Both the position numbers and the translations under genes were made by a program. From a virus, in the IMG/VR virus record IMGVR_UViG_3300036398_002145, positions 1 to 44,666 of that record: a stretch of DNA of 44,666 bases. One strand, 5' to 3'. The notes under the pieces were generated by a model. It searched no databases and was not told the DNA's origin. It saw only the letters and a list, made by a program, of their open reading frames with translations. Of the stretch, positions 14,557 to 24,182 are shown one piece after another (position 1 is the first letter of the stretch; every line of letters starts with the position of its first letter).

Positions 14557-15210
14557 ATGAGTATAGATTATAAAAATTGCATCAGTGCAAGTAAACAATA
14601 TTTGCACAAAAATATAACAATGATTGATGTTGGATGTAACATTAATCCAATTGTTGAAATGAATAATGCAGAGTGGATTGAAGGATGGAATGATGATTTT
14701 ACCTTTTTATTTTTAGAATCATTTCCAGAGTCTAAATGCATTGGTATAGAACCATTACATTGGCAAAGATATGAAAATAGATGGTGTAATGATTCTAGAG
14801 TTAATCTTTTAAAAATAGGATTATCTGATGAAGACACGATTGAAAGTATGTTTTTTCCAGGTGAAAGGCATGTTCTTTCCAGTTTCTATATCACAAATGA
14901 TTTTAAAAATGATGACATTAAAGTAGAAAAAGTTCAGTGTAAAAAATTAGATTCTATTTTTATTGATTTAAACTTAGATAAAATTGATTACTTAAAAATT
15001 GATACTGAAGGGTCAGAATACAAGATACTTTGTGGAGCACAAAATCTCTTAATGCAGAAAAAAATAACTTTTATTCAATTTGAATATGGATTGTCAAAAT
15101 TTAATAATAAAATACCCTCTGTAAAAAAAATTTCCGATTTATTAGAAAAATTTGATTATAAAGAAATCTTAACTTCTGGTAGAGAAAAATTATGGAAAGT
15201 AAATGACTAA
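14557..15210 (+). CDS. FkbM-family methyltransferase (second copy of the family)
   Basis: A 217-aa protein with MIDVGCNINPI (residues ~22-32) at the SAM site, GIEPLHW at the second acidic strand and the FkbM hallmark DYLKIDTEGSEYKIL (residues ~145-159). It is related in fold to the gene at 11043, but the two are not close in sequence. It starts 18 nt after the gp32 terminator with no obvious promoter, is much more AT-rich than gp32, and ends 3 nt before the Mom-like gene. Confidence 0.82.
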   Translation: MSIDYKNCISASKQYLHKNITMIDVGCNINPIVEMNNAEWIEGWNDDFTFLFLESFPESKCIGIEPLHWQRYENRWCNDSRVNLLKIGLSDEDTIESMFFPGERHVLSSFYITNDFKNDDIKVEKVQCKKLDSIFIDLNLDKIDYLKIDTEGSEYKILCGAQNLLMQKKITFIQFEYGLSKFNNKIPSVKKISDLLEKFDYKEILTSGREKLWKVND

Positions 15211-15213
15211 TTT

Positions 15214-15801
15214 ATGAAGTCTGATTACTATATTGATAAGATTTCTAAAAAACAAGCAGAAGAACTCTTACTTGAATATCATTATTTGAAAGATTTATCA
15301 AAAGGATTTAAGTCTGGATATAATTACGGATTGTTTCAGGGAAATGAGTTCTCACCTCTAAATATTGGTGGACTAAAAGGGGTTTGTATCTTTACAGGAC
15401 TGCCTGTTCCAGAAATTGCAAAAGGCGCTTTTGGACTTGAACGAAATGAACAACAAGGACTCTTTGAACTCTCACGACTCTGCATTCATCCACAAACTCA
15501 ACAGAGCGAGTATAATATCACTTCTTGGTTTGTTTCAAAAGCGATTAGACAGTTACGAAAAGATACTGAAGTTAAGGCAATCATTTCTTACGCTGATAGT
15601 GATTTTCATTCTGGTACAATCTATCGGGCTTGTAATTTTAAGTATGCAGGTCTCACGGATCCAAAAAAAGATTTCTACTATTCAGATGGAACTAAGCACT
15701 CTCGTGGAAAAGTAAAAGGTGCTGAGGGAGAATGGAAAGAACGCTCCCGCAAGCACCGTTATGTGATGGTTTTTGATAAGAATTTGAAACTCTTATGGTA
15801 A
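15214..15801 (+). CDS. Mom-like DNA adenine modification protein (GNAT-type)
   Basis: A 195-aa protein with the layout of phage Mu Mom relatives. EELLLEYHYLKDLSKGF near the N-terminus is followed by GVCIFTGLPVP, ELSRLCIHP and AIISYADSDFHSGTIY, then YRACNFKYAG. Mom converts adenine in DNA to N6-(methylcarbamoyl)adenine and protects phage DNA from host restriction; the acyl donor and target site here are unknown. The 3' end overlaps the convergent gp53 gene by 9 bp, with no terminator visible between them. Confidence 0.75.
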   Translation: MKSDYYIDKISKKQAEELLLEYHYLKDLSKGFKSGYNYGLFQGNEFSPLNIGGLKGVCIFTGLPVPEIAKGAFGLERNEQQGLFELSRLCIHPQTQQSEYNITSWFVSKAIRQLRKDTEVKAIISYADSDFHSGTIYRACNFKYAGLTDPKKDFYYSDGTKHSRGKVKGAEGEWKERSRKHRYVMVFDKNLKLLW

Positions 15802-19468: not shown

Positions 19469-20188
19469 ATGCCATTACCATCAATATCTACTCCAACATA
19501 TGAGTTGGAAATTCCTTCATTAAAAAAGACAATAAAATATAGACCATTTCTTGTAAAGGAAGAAAAGATTTTAATTATTGCAATGGAAAGTGAAGATCCA
19601 AAGCAAATTGCAGAATCTGTAAAAGAAGTAATTAGTAATTGTATACTTACAAAAAATATTAAAGTTGAAAATTTATCTACTTTTGATATTGAGTATATAT
19701 TTTTAAATATTAGAGGAAAATCAGTTGGGGAAGTTGCAGAAGTATTGATTACTTGTCCAGATGATGGAGTAACTCAAGTTCCTGTTAGTATTAATTTAGA
19801 TGACATTAAAGTTAAAATTAATGAGGAACATTCTAGAGATATTAAATTGGATGACAATTTAACTTTAAGAATGCGCTATCCTTCTATACAAGAATTTATC
19901 AAGAATAATTTTATAAGAACTGATAATATTGGTGTAGATGATACTTTTAATATTATTTGTTCTTGCATAGAACAAATTTACAGTGAAGAAGAATCTTGGT
20001 CTACATCAGATTGTACAAAAAAAGAACTTACTAACTTTTTAGAACAATTAAGTTCTAAACAATTTAAAGAAATTGAAAAGTTTTTTGAAACTATGCCAAA
20101 ATTGAGTCACACTATTGTCGTAAAAAATCCAAATACTAATGTCGAAAGTAGTATAGTTTTGGAGGGATTAACCTCTTTTTTCGCATAG
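19469..20188 (+). CDS. 26: gp26-like baseplate hub / tail assembly chaperone, with -1 frameshift site at its end
   Basis: A 239-aa protein (T4 gp26 is 208 aa). The start LPSISTPTYELEIPSLKKTIKYRPFLVKEEKIL is the common gp26 opening, here given in pieces: TPTYELEIPS, KYRPFLVKEEK. Strands VAEVLITCPDDG and a helical C-terminal half follow. The gene ends with T TTT TTC (20176-20182) in the correct frame for -1 slippage, GGAGGG 9 nt before it, and a TAG at 20186. A -1 shift would fuse it to the gp51-like ORF to give 299 aa. It acts in assembly of the hub with the tape-measure protein. Confidence 0.82.
   Translation: MPLPSISTPTYELEIPSLKKTIKYRPFLVKEEKILIIAMESEDPKQIAESVKEVISNCILTKNIKVENLSTFDIEYIFLNIRGKSVGEVAEVLITCPDDGVTQVPVSINLDDIKVKINEEHSRDIKLDDNLTLRMRYPSIQEFIKNNFIRTDNIGVDDTFNIICSCIEQIYSEEESWSTSDCTKKELTNFLEQLSSKQFKEIEKFFETMPKLSHTIVVKNPNTNVESSIVLEGLTSFFA
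20161..20188 (+). promoter_or_regulatory. Candidate programmed -1 ribosomal frameshift signal
   Basis: A Shine-Dalgarno-like GGAGGG (20161-20166), 9 nt, then the slippery heptamer T TTT TTC (20176-20182) read by gp26 as TTT TTC, then GCA TAG. After -1 slippage the next codons are CGC ATA GCG ATG, entering the gp51-like frame with no stop. The arrangement resembles dnaX. No strong downstream stem-loop is obvious. Confidence 0.65.
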
Positions 20189-20190
20189 CG

Positions 20191-20367
20191 ATGGCGCATG
20201 AAAATCTTGCGTCTTACTATAAAATAAATTTTGCTTTAATTCAACATCATAAATATAGCTTGACAGAGTTAGAAAATATGATGCCTTGGGAAAGAGAAGT
20301 TTATATATCATTGTTGCATCAGTACATTGAAGAAGAAAACTTAAAAAACAATTCAAATAATGGCTGA
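20191..20367 (+). CDS. 51: gp51-like small protein (hub assembly catalyst / T-domain of a chaperone pair)
   Basis: A 58-aa ORF in the -1 frame of gp26. The ATG at 20191 is 2 nt after the gp26 stop, but no good ribosome binding site lies at normal distance (GGAGGG is ~25 nt away). It would be made either by re-initiation or as the C-terminal part of a gp26 frameshift product. The sequence YYKINFALIQHHKYSLTEL, then MPWEREVYISLL, matches the short helical domain seen in gp51 and in the T half of G-GT tail chaperones; T4 gp51 is far longer (249 aa). It overlaps the next gene by 8 nt. Confidence 0.75.
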   Translation: MAHENLASYYKINFALIQHHKYSLTELENMMPWEREVYISLLHQYIEEENLKNNSNNG

Positions 20368-22162
20368 GCAGGTTACTCCACTTATCGGTTCTCCTCTATC
20401 CCAAGAATCTAGGCAGATAATTGCAAGAAGCACCTCTGTGTCTGGACAGACAGTTAGAGGTGCTAATTTATTAACACCATTGCCACCAACTGAAGCAGAG
20501 ATTAAAAATCTTCAAGTTTCTCAAAAAAATCAAGAATCTTTAGTTGAAATAAGAGGCGGATTATTTGGTGTTCAACAAGACATTAATAAGTTAAATACTG
20601 GATTAATTAATATTGCCACTCTTTTACAGCAAGATGCTGTAAATGAAGAAAGACTATTACGTTCTCAGCAAGACAGAGAAAGAAGATATGCTGAAGAGCA
20701 AGTAAGAATTGGTAGAGAAGGTGATATAGAAAGAAAAATAGACAATGCAATAGTTCAACCAGTTCAAAGAATTGCACCAAAAGTTAAAGATATTTTTGGA
20801 AACGTTCTTTCATCTTTAGGGTGGTTATTTGGTGGTTGGTTAACTAATCAAGTTATTGAATATATTAAATCTGAAGGTGAAGAAAATAATGAAAGAATGC
20901 AAGAAATTAAAAATAATATTATAAAAAATCTTAGTATTGCTGGTGGTGTTTTATTAGCAGTTAAAATAGGTATAGGAGCATTAAAAACTACGCTATTAGG
21001 TATTACCAAGTCTTTAGGATCATTGATAGGAAAAGCAGTTACTGCGCCTTTTTCAGGATTAAAAAATACTTTGCAAGGTATTTTACCTGGCGGAAATAAA
21101 CCAAGTGGAGCACCTTCTGGAACAAAACCAGGATCTTCACCAAAACCTGGAGGGGGAATTTTATCAGGATTAAAAAATTTAGGAGGAGGTCTTAAAAATA
21201 CTGCTGGTAATTTTATTAAAGGTATGGGATTTCCATTATTAACTGGATCTTTAGTGACTGGAATTGATATTAAATCAGGAGAAGATCCTGGAAGAGCAGT
21301 TGCTGGAACAGTTGGTGGAATGGTAACATCTGGGGCAGCATTTGCAGTTGGATCTTTACTTCCAATTCCTGGGAGCGGTCTTATCAGTGGTGCTCTTGGT
21401 TATCAACCAGGTGTAGACTTTACAAAAGGAATATATGATAAATTCTTTGGATCACCTAATACTAATACCAATACCAATACTAATACCAATACTAATACTC
21501 AACCAAATCCAACAACCCCATCTCCAGAAGCATTAAAACCATCAGAACCAATAACACCAACAGAAAATTTAATGGGTCAAAAACAACAAAATCCTGTTCA
21601 ATCGGATAATAATTTATTACCAATTCAAAATCAATTGATCTCTGAAATGAAATCTGTTATGCCTTCCGATACTTTAGTTGGACAAACCGCCGAACCTATT
21701 AAATCAAATTTAAACAATTTAGAATCAAAAATAAATTTCCCAGATTATTCTAATATATTTAATTTACAAGTTGATCAAAGTTCCCAACAAATTTTAAATT
21801 CTGTTAGTCAAACAAGTCAACTTCCATTATTGGACGTTAAAAATGTTTTTGGTAATCAAGAAAATACAAATCAATCTAGTATAAACGAAAATTTATTTTT
21901 ACCAAATCAAACTCAAGAAAGTCAAAACACTATCAATTCTATACCGGTAAGAAATTTTAATGTTGGAGAACTTCCAGAACCCAAACCAAATATTGTTTAT
22001 GCTTCAACAAGTTCTTCTTCAGATTCCAATTCTTACAAAACAAGTTCTTCTGGACCAGTAGGATCTTCCTCTGTATTGGCAGATGTTCCTGTAATATTGC
22101 CAAATAATCCAGATAATTTTCATATAATGTTAGCATATTCAATCTATAATGTAACTCTCTAA
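20360..22162 (+). CDS. Tape-measure/hub-like structural protein
   Basis: A 600-aa protein directly after the chaperone pair, the position of the tape measure in long-tailed phages; T4 gp29 is 590 aa. Residues 1-~130 are helical coiled coil (Gln/Glu/Arg-rich). Hydrophobic segments follow near residues 147-163 (FGNVLSSLGWLFGGW) and 190-215, then a Gly/Pro linker, a Gly/Ala-rich hydrophobic stretch (~300-350) and an Asn-Thr repeat (residues ~367-380). The C-terminal third is Gln/Asn/Ser-rich and low in complexity. Its N-terminal hydrophobic motif and Ser-rich C-terminal motif resemble those of the next gene, which suggests paralogy. It could be gp29 or a hub protein. Confidence 0.6.
   Translation: MAEQVTPLIGSPLSQESRQIIARSTSVSGQTVRGANLLTPLPPTEAEIKNLQVSQKNQESLVEIRGGLFGVQQDINKLNTGLINIATLLQQDAVNEERLLRSQQDRERRYAEEQVRIGREGDIERKIDNAIVQPVQRIAPKVKDIFGNVLSSLGWLFGGWLTNQVIEYIKSEGEENNERMQEIKNNIIKNLSIAGGVLLAVKIGIGALKTTLLGITKSLGSLIGKAVTAPFSGLKNTLQGILPGGNKPSGAPSGTKPGSSPKPGGGILSGLKNLGGGLKNTAGNFIKGMGFPLLTGSLVTGIDIKSGEDPGRAVAGTVGGMVTSGAAFAVGSLLPIPGSGLISGALGYQPGVDFTKGIYDKFFGSPNTNTNTNTNTNTNTQPNPTTPSPEALKPSEPITPTENLMGQKQQNPVQSDNNLLPIQNQLISEMKSVMPSDTLVGQTAEPIKSNLNNLESKINFPDYSNIFNLQVDQSSQQILNSVSQTSQLPLLDVKNVFGNQENTNQSSINENLFLPNQTQESQNTINSIPVRNFNVGELPEPKPNIVYASTSSSSDSNSYKTSSSGPVGSSSVLADVPVILPNNPDNFHIMLAYSIYNVTL
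21458..21499 (+). repeat. 6-bp tandem repeat encoding Asn-Thr
   Basis: About seven copies of AATAC(C/T) in a row, coding for alternating Asn-Thr in the linker of the tape-measure-like protein. The unit is a multiple of three, so copy changes keep the frame. Confidence 0.85.
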
Positions 22163-22163
22163 T

Positions 22164-24182
22164 ATGGCAGATCTACTGAAAGAAACGACATCTAGTATTA
22201 ATACAATATCTCAATCAATAAGTTCTACAAGAAGTTCGTTATCATCTTTAAGTAGTTCTGTAAATAGAATATCTCTAATAATTTCAAATAAAACAAAAGT
22301 AAGAACTGACCTGATTCTTAAAAATGTTCAGATAGAAAATAGAAGACGAGAAGCGGCAAAGAGAAAAGAATTAGAAGATCAAATTGAAGCTTCAAAAGTA
22401 TCTACAAATATTAGATCTGGTTTAAATGTTGCTTCTTCAACTGGAAAAGGTCCATTAGGAAGAATATTATCTTTTCTTGGTTATTTGGGTGCTGGATGGA
22501 TTTTAGAGAATCTTCCAACATGGATTGCAATGGGTAAAGAATTCATTGCAAGAATGAGAAAAGCAGGAGAACTTATATATTCTATTCCACAAACAATGTG
22601 GAGAATACTTCAAAATTTTGGAACATTACTTAGTTCAGTTAAACAAAATATTATAAATTTAGATTTTGGAGATTCATCGGGTGAAGTAAGAGATTCTTTC
22701 AAAGAATTGACAAATAGTATGCAACTTCTTGGTGAACAAATATATGGTGGATTTGCATCCTTATTGCAACCAAGTGGTGAAGTTGAAATACCTTCTACCG
22801 CAGAACAGCAACCTGATAGTCAAACACCATCTGCACCATCTGCACCACCTAGTAGTGGTGCAGATCCAACTGATCTTAAAGGTGGTGCTAGTTTATTAGT
22901 ACAAAAAGGATTTCCACCTAAGGGTGCCGCATATTTGGCTGGAAATATACAACAAGAATCTGGATGGAAAGCAAAAAGAAAACCTTGGGTTTTGGGAGAT
23001 GGTGCTGGAACTAATAAAGGTTTAATAAGTTGGAATAGAGGGAGAATTGCAGCAGCAGAAAAATTTTTGGGAAAACCATTAGAAACCGCAAGTGCTTCCG
23101 AACAAATAGATTGGATAAAGAAAGAAATGTCCAATCCATATTATAATAGTGGTTCTGATGGGGTTTTGAAAGTTTTTATGAACCCAAATGCAACTGATGA
23201 TCAACTTAAAGCAGCTTCTTATCGCTATATTGTTTGGGGAGATCTTGGTGGAAGATGGAATTATTCTCAAATTGCCTATGATCATTTGAAAAAACAGGGA
23301 TCTCAACCATCAAAACCAACCGTAACTCCTCAAACACCAACAGTACCACCCCCACCTAAACCTCAAACTGGTAATAAAAATGGATATTTAACAACTGCAG
23401 ATTTAATGAAAGTTAAACCTTTATCATATCCTGCAGATTATCAAGATTGGTATGGCAACAATGCTATGTTAAATCCAAGTGCAGGTAAAGCATTTCTTGC
23501 AGCACAGAAAGAATATGGAAAAGATATTCCTATCAATAGCGCATATAGAAGTTACGAGCACCAAAAACGTGTCAGTGGGTCTGTAAAAGCACCTCCAGGA
23601 TATTCTAAACATGGATTGGGTTTAGCAATTGATTTGGAACCAAATACCCCATATTATAATTGGATGCGACAAAATGGACCAAAATTTGGATGGTATTATT
23701 CAAATATACCTGGAGATCCATTTCATTTTGAATATAAAGGACAAGTACAATCATCACCAACAACAGCAAAACCACAGAGTATTGCAACCACACCATTAGT
23801 TGGTCAAAACGCAACAGAAACTTATACTGCAAACCAACCAACAGAACAACCTTATGTACCAACTGCTCAAGAATTAGAAGTTCAAAAATCTTTTAATCAA
23901 GAATTGCAAAGTATTATACAAGGTACATCATCAACAGATCAACCACAAATTTCTTCTATGCCTACTGGACAATTTGGTGGAATAGAAAAAACAATAGTTC
24001 CCGAAAGAAAAGGGCAAGAAATACTCTTTATCGATGATAGATCTCGCAGTTCTAGTTCTACATCTAAATCAATACCTGGAAGAGGATCATCTAATATTAA
24101 ATCTGCAGTAGCAGATCAACAAGGATCTATGTTAAATATGTATATGAAAAGAAAATTACTTTTAGATCTCAACTACGTATAG
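22164..24182 (+). CDS. Tail murein hydrolase: lysozyme-like + VanY-type peptidase domains on a hub scaffold
   Basis: A 672-aa protein. The N-terminal ~90 residues are Ser-rich coiled coil; a hydrophobic segment GRILSFLGYLGAGW follows (residues ~98-114), like that of the previous gene. Residues ~237-380 resemble a phage tail lysozyme (Phage_lysozyme2-type): GAAYLAGNIQQESGW with the likely catalytic Glu, then LISWNRGR. Residues ~408-525 are a D-Ala-D-Ala carboxypeptidase (VanY/LAS) domain: INSAYRSYEHQ, SKHGLGLAIDLE and HFEY supply the His-Asp-His zinc ligands. The protein should cut both the sugar and peptide parts of the host wall during injection. A Ser-rich C-terminus closes it. Confidence 0.8.
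   Translation: MADLLKETTSSINTISQSISSTRSSLSSLSSSVNRISLIISNKTKVRTDLILKNVQIENRRREAAKRKELEDQIEASKVSTNIRSGLNVASSTGKGPLGRILSFLGYLGAGWILENLPTWIAMGKEFIARMRKAGELIYSIPQTMWRILQNFGTLLSSVKQNIINLDFGDSSGEVRDSFKELTNSMQLLGEQIYGGFASLLQPSGEVEIPSTAEQQPDSQTPSAPSAPPSSGADPTDLKGGASLLVQKGFPPKGAAYLAGNIQQESGWKAKRKPWVLGDGAGTNKGLISWNRGRIAAAEKFLGKPLETASASEQIDWIKKEMSNPYYNSGSDGVLKVFMNPNATDDQLKAASYRYIVWGDLGGRWNYSQIAYDHLKKQGSQPSKPTVTPQTPTVPPPPKPQTGNKNGYLTTADLMKVKPLSYPADYQDWYGNNAMLNPSAGKAFLAAQKEYGKDIPINSAYRSYEHQKRVSGSVKAPPGYSKHGLGLAIDLEPNTPYYNWMRQNGPKFGWYYSNIPGDPFHFEYKGQVQSSPTTAKPQSIATTPLVGQNATETYTANQPTEQPYVPTAQELEVQKSFNQELQSIIQGTSSTDQPQISSMPTGQFGGIEKTIVPERKGQEILFIDDRSRSSSSTSKSIPGRGSSNIKSAVADQQGSMLNMYMKRKLLLDLNYV

Follow-up and report, generated by a model that had tools for sequence, protein, structure and literature searches.

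A probable −1 ribosomal frameshift at the end of gene 26 of a T4-like cyanophage, giving short and long forms of a putative tail-assembly chaperone

Introduction

In phage lambda, a short protein (gpG) and a frameshifted long form (gpGT) are made just before the tape-measure gene, with G_GGA_AAG as the slippery heptamer, and neither product is present in the virion. A three-part signal is known from E. coli dnaX, where a Shine-Dalgarno (SD) sequence lies about 10 nt upstream of the heptamer A_AAA_AAG and a hairpin lies downstream, the frameshift product being the shorter one. Closer to the locus studied here, an abstract by Vladimirov, Gautam and Davidson reportedly describes frameshifting in several groups of T4-like phages and names genes 26 and 51. 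Where that study (2022, Virology 566:9-15) is cited in the PRFect paper (PMC10885494), it is for the short and long chaperone genes that T4-like phages carry, and where it is cited in a 2025 paper (PMC12846349), for the poly-T slippery sites that TAC-N genes of T4-like phages contain. Sullivan et al. 2010 (PMC3037559) described the gp51 of cyanophages and of marine vibriophages as devoid of the first ~200 residues and Aeromonas phage Aeh1 as devoid of gp51, with no mention of frameshifting.

Here we analyse a stretch of viral DNA (hereafter the window; 44,666 bases, positions 1-44,666 of virus record IMGVR_UViG_3300036398_002145) in which gene 26 ends in a similar arrangement. A preliminary description, made from the letters of the window, presented it as the G/GT design well known from siphophages now appearing in a T4-like phage. 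The design can indeed be read in the sequence, but it is not new to these phages: short and long forms and a poly-T site, as in the window, are already published for T4-like tail chaperones, according to the citing passages above, so that the locus is a well-supported further case of a known kind.

Results

The window shows the gene order of a T4-like cyanophage, with genes for a gp32-like protein, baseplate wedge, tail tube cap, gp2/gp4-like protein, tail tube, gp26, 'gp51', two more tail proteins and hub proteins. In the same window, a methyltransferase-like gene (14557-15801) adjoins a Mom-like DNA modification gene. The gp26 ORF (19469-20188, plus strand), downstream of the tail tube gene (phrog_45), encodes 239 aa, matches PF12322 (E 5e-74) and phrog_150, and represents the short, 'G'-like form (TAC-N). 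To compare it with other phages we used 163 Kyanoviridae-type loci (162 relatives plus the window), of which 102 remain once redundancy is removed at 90% nucleotide identity, and a set of 80 loci from a distant search with a divergent alignment, which partly overlaps the first set. The TAG that closes the short form in the window (20186-20188, plus strand) is the stop in 58 of the 102 non-redundant relatives, the others having TAA (29) or TGA (15).

Overlapping the end of gene 26, the −1 frame (20182-20367, plus strand) extends for 61 codons and a stop and encodes a C-terminal, 'T'-like domain (TAC-C, phrog_634) that goes by the name of gp51 in other cyanophages. The preliminary description had this frame running without a stop through CGC ATA GCG ATG into a 58-aa ORF (20191-20367, plus strand), the gp51 of an annotator, and we confirm both this and the predicted fusion of 238 + 61 = 299 aa. 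In each of the 160 loci whose length allows the test, the −1 frame runs for 50 codons or more without a stop; the other two frames do so in 3/204. The protein encoded in the −1 frame is conserved among relatives.

The end of gp26 reads TCT TTT TTC GCA TAG and contains, in the gp26 phase, the heptamer T_TTT_TTC (20176-20182, plus strand). The preliminary description recognized its suitability for −1 slippage and placed it two codons before the TAG; the location is right and the count is loose, harmlessly, given that a single sense codon (GCA) intervenes. In one genome, a heptamer near a stop is weak evidence, because in-frame sites of the form X_XXY_YYZ (Y = A/T) are common in this AT-rich window (0.87% of 11,736 codon positions in its genes), T_TTT_TTY itself occurring in-frame twice. 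Among relatives the picture is clear. We looked for loss of the heptamer or of its phase and found none: the exact heptamer is in phase in 163/163 loci, or 102/102 non-redundant ones, and is therefore no chance event. The codon that gives the heptamer its first base is TCT, AGT, GCT, AAT or GAT (four amino acids) and ends in T in every relative; where it is fourfold-degenerate, T occupies the third position in 58/58 cases against a background of 0.49, and TTC serves as the second Phe codon in 102/102, where the background is 0.28. Since counts over relatives are not independent, counts of changes on the tree are the fairer measure, and here the codon before the heptamer changed at least 24 times and never lost its third-base T, while codons −5 and −1 changed at least 44 times each.

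The site extends well beyond the cyanophages of the first set. T_TTT_TTC is found in 68 of the 80 distant loci and T_TTT_TTT or T_TTT_TTA in the rest, and the −1 domain that follows belongs in each to the same family, with the exception of one locus too short to show it (L195). Phages with the site include Aeromonas Aeh1, Vibrio XZ1, Desulfovibrio 7757, Sinorhizobium phiN3, Pelagibacter Mosig, Methylophilales Melnitz, S-PM2, P-SSM2, S-CAM1 and BUCT-ZZ01. Little came of scanning viral contigs with the proteins from Desulfovibrio and phiMAM1.

Upstream of the heptamer and inside gp26 (codons GAG GGA) lies the SD-like sequence GGAGGG (20161-20166, plus strand), separated from it by a 9-nt gap (20167-20175), as the preliminary description had it. 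GGAG or GAGG occurs 5-16 nt upstream of the heptamer in 78/102 relatives, and the gap after GAGG is always exactly 10 nt. When synonymous codons were redrawn, such an element was expected in 28.5 ± 4.4 of the 102, with a maximum of 43. It is missing in about a quarter of the relatives and in Aeh1 and XZ1.

The preliminary description spoke of a dual signal, and the SD-like element and the heptamer are borne out; the number two is not, since a covarying hairpin downstream makes a third signal. Its 5' arm (20191-20197, plus strand) begins 8 nt 3' of the heptamer and covers the would-be gp51 ATG, and its 3' arm lies at 20209-20215 (plus strand). Folding energy in this region is below that of synonymous-codon shuffles (mean z −2.9; 79/99 sequences below −2; window z = −2.86). 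Among 60 sequences of the clade to which the window belongs, 96.9% of the cells of the stem are paired, and 28 cells have changed on both sides; the covariation score was reached by none of 500 shuffles and is abolished when the partner is slid along. One pair switches between UA (30), GC (24) and AU (2), with 14 or more changes on the tree; the switch links a synonymous position in one codon (GCG/GCT) with a position in another (GCG/GAG) where the change alters the amino acid. In the window, the second pair is a T-T mismatch. When covariation was tested on independent pairs, three were supported; each went in the expected direction, but the number is too small for significance. In the S-PM2-type clade an unrelated, longer stem of 13 bp occupies the same place, its covariation weak by shuffles (11 sequences); in the distant set the folding signal is weaker (mean z −1.5), and no strong hairpin is predicted in three loci (L034, L045 and L160). 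Neither stimulator, SD-like element or hairpin, is thus universal.

Judged by sequence, the locus has the features of a −1 frameshift site: an in-phase heptamer in an overlap, constraint beyond coding, a conserved open −1 frame, and SD and structure elements. The three parts of the dnaX signal are all here, with a U-rich heptamer, a shorter hairpin and a frameshift product that would be longer instead of shorter. The likeness to lambda lies in the proposed pair of forms just before a tape-measure gene, here a putative one, while the heptamer differs and the SD and hairpin stimulators are features of the window.

Profile comparisons relate this gene to two genes of T4. With hhalign, the short-form family matches T4 gp26 (probability 99.2%) and the N-terminal part of T4 gp51 (92.9%), and the −1 domain matches the last 40 residues of T4 gp51 (74%, E 3e-5). 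Homology of both domains indicates that T4 gp26 is the counterpart of the short form and T4 gp51 that of the long form; T4 has two separate, divergently transcribed genes and no frameshift, whereas the window phage has one gene with a putative frameshift. The suggestion that gp26 and gp51 are G and GT partners is thus supported in its short/long logic, in agreement with the published chaperones, and has to be amended in that 'gp51' is here the C-terminal domain only. This also accounts for the 'truncated' gp51 of cyanophages and the 'missing' gp51 of Aeh1, because the domain would be a −1 extension of gp26; in Aeh1 we find it in the −1 frame, unannotated. The AlphaFold2 model of gp26 (pLDDT 88) gave no significant solved relative in Foldseek (HK97 chaperone 2ob9 at E 4.5, TMt 0.41 over 62 columns), and a search of the PDB with the gp26 profile gave no significant match.

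A G/GT-like reading of the short and long forms of gp26 is supported by these comparisons, and from it we infer a role as tail chaperones. The strongest competitor accepts the frameshift and assigns it another function, for example in assembly of the baseplate hub, given that PMC3004832 places T4 gp26 and gp51 (the 'hub assembly catalyst') among the chaperones of hub assembly and that the gene after the chaperone pair is not always a tape measure. In the window, the preliminary description had a tape-measure-like gene in this place, and the 600-aa ORF found there (20360-22162, plus strand) fits by its position and its predicted long helix (AlphaFold2: helix at about residues 45-241, remainder disordered, pLDDT 55), but neither the ORF nor its relatives have detectable similarity to T4 gp29. 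We consider a function other than tape-measure chaperoning unlikely: the short/long design and its position fit the tail chaperones of other phages, and the two descriptions overlap, because the tape measure of T4, gp29, is itself a hub protein. The N-terminal segment of the 600-aa ORF is homologous to that of the ORF after it (22164-24182; hhalign 98%, E 2.5e-13), in which Phage_lysozyme2 and VanY domains are found as well.

A second possibility is that gp51 is a small gene of its own, translated by coupling or re-initiation at the ATG at 20191, the heptamer being incidental. The window and 80/102 relatives do have this ATG, 2 nt past the gp26 stop, and GenBank records often annotate a gene at this place. 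Nevertheless, the ATG is absent in 22/102 relatives (some have CTC or CTA instead) and was lost or gained at least five times on the tree, and among 70 distant loci it is found at the usual place in 32 and absent in 38, with no ATG, GTG or TTG within the first five codons in 30. In the phages without it, the −1 domain would most simply be made by frameshifting only. Further, the nearest SD lies 24 nt before the ATG at 20191, the ATG is inside the conserved hairpin, and synonymous constraint on the heptamer is extreme. We therefore find a separate gp51 very improbable, and the 58-aa ORF is not needed as a gene, although phages that have the ATG, the window's included, may make some free 58-aa product besides the fusion. 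In S-CAM1 (L259:2007-2192), the −1 domain lacks the usual-place ATG, and the deposited record has no annotation for it in the space between gp26 and the following gene.

Last, slippage of the polymerase instead of the ribosome, which the homopolymeric run of six T (seven in a few relatives) might invite, is hardly credible as the source of the −1 product, because polymerase slippage needs no fixed phase and the codon phase of the run is fixed, with exactly six T and then C in 102/102 relatives and in 68/80 distant loci, and because it is ribosomes that respond to an SD at a fixed distance and to a covarying hairpin.

Discussion

Our results point to very probable −1 slippage of the ribosome where gene 26 ends, giving a short and a long tail-assembly helper. 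From the signals described above we infer that slippage would be limited to a minority of ribosomes, by tandem re-pairing of tRNA-Phe at T_TTT_TTC, aided by GGAGGG 9-10 nt upstream and by the hairpin 8 nt downstream. Ribosomes that slipped would miss the stop of gp26 and go on to translate the 61-residue C-terminal domain, yielding the 299-aa long form. The short and long forms would then act on the tape-measure protein and the tail tube during tail assembly in the manner of lambda gpG and gpGT, and their T4 equivalents would be the short and long proteins made from the separate genes 26 and 51. We hold this explanation as a whole, from the frameshift and its stimulators to the long form, the G/GT-like role and the T4 equivalence, with high confidence.

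Other phages show variations on this arrangement. In the gp26 homologues of Ackermannviridae and of Vibrio phages D532 and Kuja (L089, L085, L261-L267), the same C-terminal domain is found in the −1 frame, mostly unannotated, with A_ATT_TTC, G_GTT_TTC, A_CTT_TTC or C_CTT_TTT at the site in place of T_TTT_TTC; in several the two frames overlap by no more than 10-22 nt, and any slippage would therefore be non-canonical. Vibrio phage phiKT1024 (L258:811-2153) has a short chaperone-like gene and, head to tail behind it, a long one that includes the C-terminal domain, possibly a two-gene arrangement like that of T4, but collinear. In Pelagibacter phage Mosig (L255:1297-2028) the heptamer is 10 codons before the gp26 stop, and the tail of the 0 frame thus overlaps the −1 domain. 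In Synechococcus phage BUCT-ZZ01 (L260) the heptamer and the −1 domain are followed by a late sigma factor gene, not a tape measure.

On balance, we lean towards a broader proposal, in which marine T4-like phages would obtain the C-terminal chaperone domain solely by frameshifting, the hairpin would both stimulate slippage and hide the leftover ATG, the 'short gp51' of cyanophages would be an artefact of annotation in hundreds of genomes, and the two-gene layout of T4 would have arisen by duplication and fusion from a frameshifting gene, or would have given rise to it. Many cyanophage records split the gp26/gp51 locus into two genes or omit its second part. With the frameshift, the 'truncated' gp51 reported in 2010 for cyanophages and marine vibriophages and the 'missing' gp51 of Aeh1 would be explained as a single gene product, and a short reporter could be used to test the ratio of short to long form in a T4-type tail chaperone.
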